From Solidesulfovibrio carbinolicus (GTDB taxonomy: Bacteria > Desulfobacterota > Desulfovibrionia > Desulfovibrionales > Desulfovibrionaceae), in the NCBI RefSeq assembly GCF_004135975.1, contig NZ_CP026538.1, positions 1,488,001-1,552,000 on the forward strand: a stretch of 64,000 nt of DNA, given 5' to 3'. A program made the translations under genes and the position numbers. The notes under the pieces are model-generated. The model had not been told where the DNA came from. It was given only the letters and a program-made list of their open reading frames with translations, and made no database searches. Position 1 is the first letter of the stretch. Each line of letters starts with the position of its first letter. Positions 30,427-39,991 of the stretch are shown in pieces.

Positions 30427-30478
30427 GGTGTGTGTCCTTTAGGGAAGAGGGGAGGATGAGAAGAGGGGAAGAATAAGA

Positions 30479-30518
30479 TGCCTCCGGCGGCTGGGGGCCT
30501 GAGGCCCCCAGACCCCCC
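30479..30518 (+). repeat. Dispersed intergenic palindromic repeat, copy 3
   Basis: Forward-orientation unit with stem CTGGGGGCC, loop TGA, GGCCCCCAG and a GACCCCCC tail. It faces copy 4 about 87 bases away in opposite orientation, so together they form a larger inverted pair between the oxidase and the ABC operon. Confidence 0.85.
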
Positions 30519-30605: not shown

Positions 30606-30645
30606 GGGGGGTCCGGGGGCCTCAGGCCCCCGGCCGCCGGAGGCA
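30606..30645 (-). repeat. Dispersed intergenic palindromic repeat, copy 4
   Basis: Reverse-orientation unit with stem CCGGGGGCC, loop TGA, GGCCCCCGG. It ends 17 bases beyond the stop codon of the last ABC permease gene and could serve as its 3' hairpin. Confidence 0.85.
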
Positions 30646-30662
30646 TTCTTCTCTTTCTCTCA

Positions 30663-33695: not shown

Positions 33696-34190
33696 GGTTC
33701 GCTCCCGGGGTTGAAGGTGGCAGATGCGGGGACAAGAACGTATCCGACGTCGCCGGGTGTCCGGCGCGACTGGCCAAGCTCAAATCCGCAAGCGAAAAAA
33801 GTAACAGACAACCCCCTGGCGATCAAGGCCGGCGTCGGCCGGGCGGGCCGGAAACAGGGCGCTTGGGCCGTTGCCTTGGTCTCCCCGCCGAACTGCGCGG
33901 AATCATAAAAACACATCTCAGGCGGGTTGAGCCGCGAGGGGGCCACGGTAAACGAATTCTCCTCGTGTTCGCGGGCTTCAAGGAAGATTTTTCAAGCGGT
34001 TCCAGGGAGCACTTGTATGCACCAGAAAAAAAAGACCCACCAAGGGGTTACGAGCCAAGAGATACTTTAAAGAATTGTGCAGCGGATTCGCAATGAGATT
34101 GGCAAACAGTTTCTGGCATGGTAAGGGGTATTTACGGTGTATTTGTGCCCAGAGAACAGAACTCGAGACACAAAAGGAAGAAGGTGGACA
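33696..34190. other. Gap and start of the AT-rich island
   Basis: About 495 bases between the ABC receptor start (minus strand) and the acyltransferase start (plus strand). The first 200 bases are GC-rich like the rest of the window; composition drops from about 33,900 onward. It should hold two divergent promoters, but I see none clear enough to mark. No gene seen. Confidence 0.4.
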
Positions 34191-35294
34191 ATGGTCGTTA
34201 ACAAATTGTCTCTCCGGGATACGTCGATATTGAAAGCAATATCCATTATATTCATAGTGCTACATAATGCTTTGCATCCAATTTACAGGCCAACAAAGGT
34301 ATGTAACGAGTTTGATTTTTCCATTTCCCGGATACAGTTTTTTTGGGACAACGTGTCCAATAATATTCTTGCCCTGCCAAATTGTATTTTGATGGCATTT
34401 GGGTATGTCGGGGTGGCCTACTTCTTCTTCTTTTCAGCCTATGGACTTGCCTACAAATTCAATAAAAGCGAGAACGTTCCATACTGGGAATTTGTAAAAA
34501 CGAGACTGGTCAAGTTATATATCCCCATAGCCCTATCAACGTTATTTCTGCTCGTCTTTGTGCTGTTGTTCGGACAATACGGAACCCATGCAAGACTCAG
34601 TCCTTACCATCTGCTGTTGCAACTCGCAACTTTCGTAAATTTCACTTCGAGTTATGACGCAGTCATTGTTGGCCCCTGGTGGTTTTTGGGAGCAATAATT
34701 CAACTTTATTTTGTCCTGCATATTTTGATGTGGGGAACGAAAAAGTACGGGAATTATTTTCTTCTGGTGATTTCAATTGCTTCCATATTTATACTGATGA
34801 CGTTTAACAACCTGTTGTCAGAATACATTTTTTTAAAAAAGAATATCATCGGATGGCTGCCGGAAGTGTCGCTGGGCATTTACTTCGTGCGAAGCCGTAA
34901 AATTGAAATCACAAACGTACAAGCGACGGTGCTGGCCGCAGTTTGTTTGCTCTTGTACCTTCTTGGCAATGTCTATGAGTTTTTTTGGTATTTTTCGTCC
35001 TTCGCAATTCTTTTGTTTTGCGTCATCGTCTCGCACCCTGTCTTATTGTTCGTGCACAAGTTTTGCCGGCTTGATGATTTCTTGAACTATACAGGAAAAA
35101 TTTCAGTCTACATGTTTCTTGTCAACGGGATAATACGAGAGCCAATCATCGAATTGTACAGCAGGCCGTCTTCGACTGTTCTAACACATTCAATCTGTGC
35201 CTTGACCATTCTCGTTCTTTCGTTTTTCGTCGCAGTGCTCTTGATGTTCATTCAAGAAAAGACTGCTGCCGCTTTGAATAGTGGCACCTCGTGA
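34191..35294 (+). CDS. Membrane acyltransferase (acyltransferase-3 family)
   Basis: A 367-residue protein with about ten hydrophobic segments. It has the acyltransferase-3 pattern: a cytoplasmic start (LSLRDTSILKAISIIFIVLHN) with a His at the end of the first segment, a GVAYFFFFSAYGLAYKF segment where the family has an R/F-rich GFFFxLSGY, and VGPWWFLGAIIQLYF like the family WYLxxEvxFY. Such enzymes add acetyl or other acyl groups to surface sugars or peptidoglycan. The ATG at 34191 follows AAGGTGG. The substrate is unknown; the adjacent exported racemase may act in the same surface pathway (inference). Confidence 0.75.
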   Translation: MVVNKLSLRDTSILKAISIIFIVLHNALHPIYRPTKVCNEFDFSISRIQFFWDNVSNNILALPNCILMAFGYVGVAYFFFFSAYGLAYKFNKSENVPYWEFVKTRLVKLYIPIALSTLFLLVFVLLFGQYGTHARLSPYHLLLQLATFVNFTSSYDAVIVGPWWFLGAIIQLYFVLHILMWGTKKYGNYFLLVISIASIFILMTFNNLLSEYIFLKKNIIGWLPEVSLGIYFVRSRKIEITNVQATVLAAVCLLLYLLGNVYEFFWYFSSFAILLFCVIVSHPVLLFVHKFCRLDDFLNYTGKISVYMFLVNGIIREPIIELYSRPSSTVLTHSICALTILVLSFFVAVLLMFIQEKTAAALNSGTS

Positions 35295-35412
35295 TGTATA
35301 TCCCTCTGGCGTAGCCAATTTGCAAAGAGATCGTTGCAACAAGTCGAATGCAGCTCGCGGTGAGACGTATCTTTTCGTTTTGAGACGCAACAATTTGATG
35401 TTGGGGAGAGAA

Positions 35413-36573
35413 ATGCGGAAAATGGCACGTATGCTTTTGGCCTTTGTCGTTGTTGTTCTTTTGAACGGCTGCTGCGGGGCGGGCTTACAACCCCATGCCG
35501 GGCAATCGTTGCCACCGGTACAGCTTGATCTTGCGACGTTCGACTCCGGATTTGGCGGGTTTTTCACGGCAAAATGCATGCTGGATCAAGCGCCGGAGTT
35601 GCTTAAGAAATACAATGTCGCCATTTCCATTACGCATTATGGCGATTCCAAACATGCCCCATATGGGAACAAGCCCCCCTCGGAGATTGCGAGGCTGACC
35701 GGGCTTGGCGTGGAAAAGGCCTTGGAAGACGGAGCCGAGGTCGTGGCCATCGCCTGCAATACCGCCTCGACACAGCATCCTGCCGTCATCGAAAACATCA
35801 AGCAGAAGTATCCGGACAAGGAGCACTCCGTCCTGTCAATCATAACGCCGACCATAGGCGCCGTAAAAGAACGTCTGGACAAGCTTCTCGCCACGAATGA
35901 GACGGCGACGCTCGCTATATTCGCAACGCCGGCAACAGTGAAAAGCATGACCTATCCCGCGAAGCTGGCGGACATCTATCAAGGGAAGCTGGAGAATGGC
36001 GACATCCAGGAAATCAGGCAAGACGACTGGAAGGACTCCTCCCGGCAAACGGCCAATTTTGTTTCTCGCAGCCTCGTCCGGCTTCCCAAAAAGAAAACCA
36101 TATTCATCTACCAGTTTGCGCCGGGGAACTGGGTCAGCATGATTGAAGAAGGCGCTTTGCAAGACGTCAAACAACGGATCGTTCAGGATGACGTAAGACA
36201 ATTTCTTGCAAGGCTTTCTCTGGATCACGCTCTTTCCGTTGTCGGCCTGTTTTGCACGCATTACCCCGTATTCAAAGGTCTTATTGCAAAGGAGATGATG
36301 GCGGAAAAGGCTGCTGATTCCTCCACACAATTTGTTGAGCAAGGAGATTTTGCTGCAAGTTACGCCTATGCCGCCATTTATTCACAATACAAAGATAAAG
36401 TTAGGGATTTTACTGTTTCAGAACAGGAACTTGCAGGGCTTGTTGAGAGAGCGAAGCCTAAGGTTGTGATAAGCGGAGACAATGTATCCCAGACACAAAA
36501 TCTGGTGAGGACCATTTTTCCTGAATTAAAGGACGTTATCGTCGTCAATGAATCTTTTTCCTCAGCGCCATGA
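35413..36573 (+). CDS. Exported lipoprotein of the glutamate/aspartate racemase family
   Basis: A 386-residue protein with a lipoprotein signal: charged MRKMAR start, hydrophobic core, then LLNGC with Cys20 as the probable lipidation site. The rest matches MurI-type, PLP-independent racemases: TFDSGFGGF at 42-50 (Asp44/Ser45), HYGDSKHAPYGNK at 75-87, the first catalytic Cys115 in IACNTAST, TPTIGAVK near 145-152 and the second catalytic Cys281 with His283 in FCTHYP. All key residues are kept, so it is probably active, yet the enzyme should sit outside the cytoplasm. It is about 120 residues longer than normal MurI. The ATG at 35413 follows GGGGAGA. Confidence 0.78.
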   Translation: MRKMARMLLAFVVVVLLNGCCGAGLQPHAGQSLPPVQLDLATFDSGFGGFFTAKCMLDQAPELLKKYNVAISITHYGDSKHAPYGNKPPSEIARLTGLGVEKALEDGAEVVAIACNTASTQHPAVIENIKQKYPDKEHSVLSIITPTIGAVKERLDKLLATNETATLAIFATPATVKSMTYPAKLADIYQGKLENGDIQEIRQDDWKDSSRQTANFVSRSLVRLPKKKTIFIYQFAPGNWVSMIEEGALQDVKQRIVQDDVRQFLARLSLDHALSVVGLFCTHYPVFKGLIAKEMMAEKAADSSTQFVEQGDFAASYAYAAIYSQYKDKVRDFTVSEQELAGLVERAKPKVVISGDNVSQTQNLVRTIFPELKDVIVVNESFSSAP

Positions 36574-36803
36574 AGTGCATGAGTCTGCGCCGAAAAGCAC
36601 AAGAGGCCTTTTCTTGGCCGCTTACCTTTTCGGCCAGAGTGCATCCCCCGGGAAGACATACCTGGCAACATCGGCCGCCGGTGTGCGTTTCGACAAGGTG
36701 TTGCATTGGCCCTGTCATGGCGCGACGTGCCCGCTCCTGGTCTGCTCCGGAACCGTATCCGCCAGCTCCCGCGAGAAATCCTGAAGGACCAACAAAGAGA
36801 TAA

Positions 36804-37721
36804 TCAGACGAGCTGGGTGCCAAGCACCCGGTTGCGGCCGGCCATCTTGGCTTCATAGAGTTTGCGGTCGGCCAGGCACAGCAGGTTCTCGGCGCTGCCC
36901 CCGGCCTTGGGCACGCAGCAGGCCGCGCCCAGGGTGATGGTGACCACCTTGGAAACGCACGAGCCGTCGTGGGTCAGGCCCAAGTCGGACACGGCCAGAC
37001 GCATGGCCTCGGCCAGATGCATGGCCCCGGCCAGGTCGGTCTCTTCCAGGATGACGACGAATTCCTCGCCGCCAAACCGCGCCGCCAGATCGCCCGGGCG
37101 CTTGAGCACGCCGGCCAGGGTGGCGGCCACGGCCTTCAGGCATTCGTCGCCGGCCATGTGGCCGTAGGTGTCGTTGTAGGCTTTGAAACAGTCGATGTCG
37201 GCCATGAGCAGGCTCATGGACGTCGCCCCGCGCATGGCCTGCCGCCAGGCCCGGTTGAGGCAGTCGTTGAAGCGGCGGCGGTTGGCGATGCCGGTCAGGC
37301 CGTCACGCATGGACAGCGTTTCCAGCAGATCGCCCCGGCGCTTGAGTTCCACATGGGTGCGCACCCTGGCCTGGACGATGGGGACGCTCACCGGCTTGAC
37401 GATGTAGTCCACGGCCCCCAGGGCCAGCCCCAGCGTCTCGTCGGCCACGTCGCCCTTGGCCGTCAGGAAAATGATGGGGATGTTGCGGGTGGCCGCCCGG
37501 GCCTTGAAACGGCGGCAGACTTCGTAGCCGTCCATGTCGGGCATGAGGATGTCGAGCAAAATAAGGTCCGGCGGACTTTCTTCCACCAAACGCAGAGCCT
37601 GGGCGCCGCTGGAGGCGATGCGCACGTCGTATTCGCTGCGCAGGGCTTCGGTCAAGACAGCCAGGTTGGAAGGGGCGTCGTCAACGATGAGGATCGTTGC
37701 CGGGGCGGTGGGCAATTCCAT
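36804..37721 (-). CDS. Response regulator with GGDEF output (diguanylate cyclase)
   Basis: A 305-residue protein with a receiver domain ([18 protein letters not shown] start, acceptor Asp in [16 protein letters not shown], conserved Lys in YIVKPVSVP) followed by a GGDEF domain. The active loop is GGEEF and an RxxD inhibition site (RPGD) lies five residues before it. It should make cyclic di-GMP in response to phosphorylation. No cognate kinase is adjacent; the hybrid kinase at 18.9 kb is not obviously linked. The short gap to the island on its 3' side holds nothing I can name. Confidence 0.92.
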
Positions 37722-39902: not shown

Positions 39903-39915
39903 TTAAAGACGAAGA

Positions 39916-39955
39916 TGCCTCCGGCGGCCGGGGGCCTGAGGCCCCCGGACCCCCC
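39916..39955 (+). repeat. Dispersed intergenic palindromic repeat, copy 5
   Basis: Forward unit with stem CCGGGGGCC, loop TGA, GGCCCCCGG. It is 13 bases after the GltD-like gene and 36 bases before the ferredoxin gene, that is, inside a likely operon. Confidence 0.85.
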
Positions 39956-39991
39956 ACATGGGAAAGGGGGACGATTGCAGCGGGAGTGAAA

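Follow-up and report, generated by a model that had tools for sequence, protein, structure and literature searches.

A MurI-like racemase homologue with a predicted export signal on an inserted segment in Solidesulfovibrio carbinolicus

Glutamate racemase MurI is a cytoplasmic enzyme of wall-precursor synthesis of a type that is not known to act elsewhere, and YgeA, RacX and RacD, the PLP-independent aspartate and Asp/Glu racemases, are cytoplasmic as well. BsrF, RacK and BsrV are PLP enzymes of another fold, and the periplasmic racemases of the Bsr/Alr type have the alanine-racemase fold with a PLP lysine. BsrV is reportedly a secreted broad-spectrum racemase as far as its location goes, and the secreted racemases known to supply the wall or the surroundings with D-amino acids are, to our knowledge, PLP enzymes. 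PMC12502697 describes BsrF and RacK as secreted, and recounts earlier work in which BsrF without its signal rescues a D-Glu auxotroph. No exported glutamate racemase was found in the open-licence literature, mostly titles and the starts of abstracts, including PMC12838360 and PMC12502697 in passages.

The window analysed here, a stretch of 64,000 nucleotides from Solidesulfovibrio carbinolicus, encodes a 386-residue protein, read from ATG 35413 (Table 1). With MurI/RacE (TIGR00067) it shares the predicted two-lobe fold and the catalytic Cys, Asp, Glu and His, but it has in addition a predicted export signal, is eight residues longer in the first lobe and about 54 longer between its two catalytic thiols, scores half of the curated cut-off and falls outside the host MurI clade in a quick tree. 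With the secreted broad-spectrum racemases BsrF, RacK and BsrV it has a (here predicted) secretion signal in common, whereas it shows a predicted MurI fold and a thiol pair. The aspartate and Asp/Glu racemases YgeA, RacX and RacD have a related fold (3s81, Z 17.5) but are more distant than MurI by both profile and fold. Our analysis suggests, with fair but not high confidence, that this is an exported, probably lipid-anchored and cofactor-independent MurI-type racemase whose substrate is an extracytoplasmic acidic amino acid and whose gene is cargo of a small cassette. If the protein is both exported and active, it would represent a second route to extracellular D-amino acids, for the acidic ones only, and its thiols would have to be reduced while outside the cytoplasm.

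Table 1. Features of the racemase-like gene and its surroundings (nucleotide positions counted from the first letter of the window; residues are those of the 386-residue protein)
Feature	Position	Strand	Evidence
Inserted segment, 2971 bp, with acyltransferase and racemase-like gene	33837..36807	.	spacing of the flanks in congeners; GC
Acyltransferase-3 membrane protein (Acyl_transf_3), upstream partner	34191..35294	+	PF01757, E 5e-19
Shine-Dalgarno-like GGGGAGAG	35403..35410	+	sequence, 5' of ATG 35413
MurI-like racemase homologue with predicted export signal, 386 aa	35413..36573	+	frame, profile, orthologue, fold
Predicted signal peptide, residues 1-19, basic start and hydrophobic core	35413..35469	+	hydropathy; kept in orthologue
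Cys20, presumed lipid-bearing residue	35470..35472	+	NGCC kept in orthologue
Asp44-Ser45-Gly46, DSG active-site motif	35542..35550	+	invariant in alignments with MurI-type rows
Cys115, first catalytic Cys (ACNT)	35755..35757	+	invariant in alignments with MurI-type rows
Residues 190-226, extra inter-lobe stretch with predicted beta-strands	35980..36090	+	alignments, model
Glu245 (IEEG), aligned with the Glu kept by MurI rows	36145..36147	+	invariant; kept in third member
Cys281-Thr282-His283 (CTHYP), second catalytic Cys and His	36253..36261	+	invariant; kept in third member

We found one full-length orthologue, protein P0002 of genome G271 in another genus of the same family, which is 76% identical over 386 residues and in which signal, Cys and active-site residues are all conserved. 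The comparison of the two genes gives a dN/dS of 0.19 over 386 codons (dN 0.14, dS 0.73), and this codon-level conservation indicates a real, constrained gene. Scans for promoters and terminators at the locus gave about the same as in shuffled sequences, and Rfam gave no match.

The original prediction described an exported lipoprotein with Cys20 after LLNG, and this N-terminus is present in the window protein (LLNG, then C20-C21, then a linker) with a basic start, a hydrophobic core and a Cys ending the signal. The orthologue retains the hydrophobic core and NGCC, and the maximum 12-residue hydropathy of the signal is 2.9 in the window protein and 2.8 in the orthologue. The lipoprotein part of the claim holds only partly: the signal and Cys20 are there, but LNGC in the window protein and FNGC in the orthologue depart from the lipobox consensus [LVI][ASTVI][GAS]C by Asn at -2 and, in the orthologue, also by Phe at -3. 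This consensus is taken from PMC6139136, in which LNGC is among the deviating lipoboxes predicted in phage spanins. Because the lipobox is non-canonical, export is the firmer of the two: as judged from the sequence, export of the window protein is well supported and lipidation at Cys20 probable. Cytoplasmic MurI is expected to have no export signal, while a signal-like N-terminus is kept here in two genera, i.e. in two of the three members of the family; the third (G1640) is partial and its N-terminus is missing. Among 75 distinct MurI-type proteins (92 rows minus 5 of the query family, 10 duplicates, 1 without the motif and 1 masked), the 70 in-frame residues preceding DSG never combine a hydrophobic stretch with a lipobox-like Cys after it; in two proteins the hydrophobic stretch occurs alone.

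The active-site residues named in the original prediction are all present: DSG at 44-46, Cys115, Cys281, the Tyr of PYG (residues 83-85) at 84 and the His of THYP at 283. In an alignment with four MurI-type rows, host MurI included, D44, S45, P83, Y84, G85, C115, N116, T117, T172, T175, E245, C281, T282 and H283 are invariant, and we take these to be the catalytic and binding residues of MurI. Glu246, unlike Glu245, is not kept in the third member. The orthologue has Cys only at 20, 21, 115 and 281 in the stretch matching the window protein, which has an extra Cys55 (Gly in the orthologue), so that outside the CC of the lipobox only 115 and 281 are kept in both full members. The sole Cys of the partial third member is that of CTHY. 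The number of Cys per MurI core ranges from 2 to 9 (mean 4.5, n=75) and is three or fewer in 16 of the 75, and hence a low count is a weak sign; that the kept Cys are just the catalytic pair appears to say more. Together with the dN/dS value and the predicted MurI fold, this favours a working exported thiol racemase.

The nearest kin by profile is TIGR00067 (NCBIfam, searched with HMMER), with 72.1 bits for the window protein and 74.9 bits for the orthologue, both below the cut-off of 146.65. A score of half the curated cut-off points to a divergent, exported MurI-like branch. HMMER against the PDB gave 22 matches with E no higher than 1, every one of them to a glutamate racemase, the best at E 6e-12. 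Pfam Asp_Glu_race (PF01177) scores 14.1 bits, below its gathering cut-off of 31, and a fold relationship remains. For an AlphaFold2 model, the window protein was aligned with 16 MurI-type proteins drawn from the loci of the peptide scan described below; its mean pLDDT is 76.8, with residues 1-3, 6-9 and 14-28 under 50. A VIA-align comparison puts 31 glutamate racemase entries on top (best 3ist, Z 28.9, rmsd 3.0, 263 aligned), though the MurI sequences in its input alignment bias the model towards that fold. The aspartate racemase 3s81 comes next (rmsd 3.3, 222 aligned), and on this comparison we rank aspartate racemase below MurI as closest kin. Foldseek concurs with the MurI fold of the model (best E 4.6e-14). 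The alanine-racemase PLP fold is not among the model's best fold matches, which are MurI, an absence that by itself excludes nothing.

The protein had been described as about 120 residues longer than MurI, and it exceeds the host MurI (270 aa) by 116 residues. The extra length consists of about 35 residues of signal and linker, an 8-residue loop of the first lobe lying between DSG and the first Cys, about 54 residues between the two Cys and a tail of about 22. Residues 190-226 are mostly gap in the aligned MurI rows and ungapped in all three members, and the model has predicted strands at 192-200 and 216-224. This inter-lobe stretch may have changed the substrate or may have made a binding protein. 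An extra C-terminal domain is ruled out, since the 106 residues past the second Cys fall inside the span of 67-108 measured for MurI-type rows.

The genome has a separate true murI (G000:C1:3764762-3765505) that scores about 221.5-221.7 bits, well above the TIGR00067 cut-off, and the window gene is therefore not its only murI; the second objection attached to the original prediction thus fails. It also has another gene of the Asp/Glu racemase family (PF01177, 112 bits). We built a quick tree of 77 rows, leaving out the masked and truncated rows L025, L030 and L041. The window protein and its orthologue form their own long branch (3.6 for the query), and the host-genus MurI rows are in clades with SH-aLRT 97-99, with the query outside. 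The tree program warned that long branches may join falsely or be wrongly shut out, which makes the exact place of the query unsure, and we hence used only its separation from host MurI. This separation makes a recent copy of the host murI unlikely.

Only three members of the family were found, one of them partial. The third member, from another family of the order, is represented by its 219 C-terminal residues, which lie at a contig end, match the window protein with 59% identity over 208 residues and keep Glu245, Cys281 and His283. A search of 288 genomes of the family (E 1e-11) gave, besides the own genome, the full-length orthologue and one partial MurI-type match (G529). The sample of the phylum (395 genomes) gave the own genome, G271 and six partial MurI-type matches, and that of the order (287 genomes) the own genome, G271 and G1640. 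Each of the 13 other genomes of the genus has one match within residues 26-191, as expected of MurI. These samples overlap and their counts are not to be summed. Samples of other groups gave only partial MurI-type matches, in 33 of 398, 3 of 267 and 1 of 265 (E 1e-10) genomes, all confined to model positions 30-201 of 399; the rows listed for the 265-genome sample are mostly small genomes. Loci were fetched for 20 of the 33 matching genomes, with a 669-aa open frame in G845 left out.

We also scanned genomes for six exact peptides and obtained 24 loci, which are MurI-type, one of them a weak partial (L030). All six peptides differ in the orthologue by eye, so the scan is no evidence of absence, and it favours MurI proteins with KHAPYGNK, one of its patterns. 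Viral contigs held no relative. Seven phage and 24 plasmid records matched, all under 60% identity; the two annotated phage records are both glutamate racemase, and the named products among the 20 plasmid records listed are racemases. We inspected four of these matches, chosen for an early alignment start or top rank: H3, H7 and H21 read as standard, signal-less MurI proteins (267-292 aa), and H1 is a 768-bp gene annotated as a member of a racemase family.

The gene lies within an inserted segment together with an acyltransferase gene in the same direction. Neither the insertion nor this pairing, nor the low TIGR00067 score, figured in the original prediction. The GC content is 48% in the insert against 66% in the rest of the window, and along the locus it goes down to 41-54%, starting from about 65%. 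Of the 13 further genomes of the genus, 12 have the response-regulator gene that flanks the insert, and the site was compared in five of these 12. The two flanks (at about 33836 and 36808) are only 94 (G005), 92 (G012), 46 (G008) and 149 bp (G013) apart in the four congeners that do not have the insert, and the fifth (G007) has a different insert of 2.17 kb at the very same place, so the site looks like an insertion hot-spot. No repeat clearly marks the insert ends. For the acyltransferase an alternative in-frame GTG start at 34137 is possible, and no solved structure was matched by sequence. PADLOC gave nothing for the two genes. The same two genes are adjacent in G271, where a fragment of the acyltransferase at the contig end is 72% identical to the last 104 aa of the window acyltransferase, and the pair lies in a low-GC stretch that starts by a tRNA-Ala gene about 5 kb away. 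With just two cases, the two genes thus appear to move as a unit.

From these features we infer that a Sec signal would take the new protein out of the cytoplasm and would most likely be cut before Cys20, which would lead to lipid anchoring. At the periplasm or cell surface, the thiols of residues 115 and 281 would flank the cleft and would take the alpha-proton off an acidic amino acid and put one back, interconverting its L and D forms, with glutamate or an analogue the most likely substrate. The role would more likely be an accessory envelope or niche trait than the supply of D-Glu for the wall, given that the gene is cassette cargo shared with the acyltransferase and that the host has its own murI. 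Wall editing or signalling, which the original prediction put forward, may be possible uses. A quite different reading would make the protein a spare cytoplasmic glutamate racemase, through an internal start or a hydrophobic N-terminus that goes unused. The window copy has a TTG at codon 33, its one start candidate after the lipobox, and the orthologue has CTG, a rare start, at codon 40. But the orthologue encodes Pro at codon 33 and, from codon 7 to Met56, offers neither ATG nor GTG nor TTG, its only CTG codons in that interval being 9 and 40. In the orthologue a start at any of those three codons from the lipobox to Met56 is therefore ruled out, and an internal cytoplasmic start is very unlikely, so the objection of an internal start, attached to the original prediction, fails. 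The Shine-Dalgarno-like sequence upstream of ATG 35413 has a counterpart, GAGGAGAG, at the matching place upstream of the orthologue start, and the first 22 codons, with pN 0.15 and pS 0.40 over few sites, look constrained. We regard a cytoplasmic enzyme as highly improbable.

The main alternative to the favoured reading keeps export and the same chemistry but has a substrate other than free glutamate, such as some other acidic compound, or a residue built into a peptide or into a polymer of the surface; the cleft would be reshaped by the extra stretch, and the acyltransferase would modify the same polymer. The additional residues between the two Cys, in a stretch kept in three members, the acyltransferase next to the gene in two genomes and the separate long branch in the tree are all consistent with it. 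Yet every residue of the active-site area that is kept by the MurI rows is also kept here, and nothing puts the extra stretch at the cleft; we consider this alternative unlikely, though worth taking seriously. The protein could also be a lipoprotein of the periplasm in which the racemase fold, no longer catalytic, serves for binding or sensing, and this seems to us rather improbable. Lipoprotein-anchored binding proteins are common, and the insert adjoins a polar amino acid ABC transporter gene (PF00497). That gene belongs to the host DNA next to a variable site, and the congeners examined have it without the insert, which makes the adjacency probably chance and a meaningful link unlikely, and both thiols, the His and the Glu are kept under purifying selection. 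Returning to the exported racemase, we would give about an even chance to the wider proposal that these proteins are the first recognised family of exported, lipid-anchored and cofactor-independent racemases of acidic amino acids, encoded next to an acyltransferase on a mobile cassette of the order and making or removing D-Glu or D-Asp outside the cytoplasm by a thiol enzyme.

Some further genes and repeats were observed around these loci. The different insert of G007 has a 521-residue open frame (L109:5008-6573) with a secreted-like start and no Pfam match at E 0.001. The low-GC stretch by the tRNA-Ala gene that holds the G271 orthologue also encodes a caspase-like protein (L065:3101-4660; PADLOC 'caspase', E 2.8e-13, no Pfam match). 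Dispersed stretches of about 40-70 bp, 86-94% alike, occur in the window at 30446-30518, 30606-30654 and 39906-39973 and are also found in congeners. Near the third member in G1640 there is a two-domain cytidine deaminase (L119:1080-2078; PF00383 and PF08211) whose N-terminus, judged by eye, resembles a signal; it too is of a normally cytoplasmic kind but has the look of an exported enzyme.
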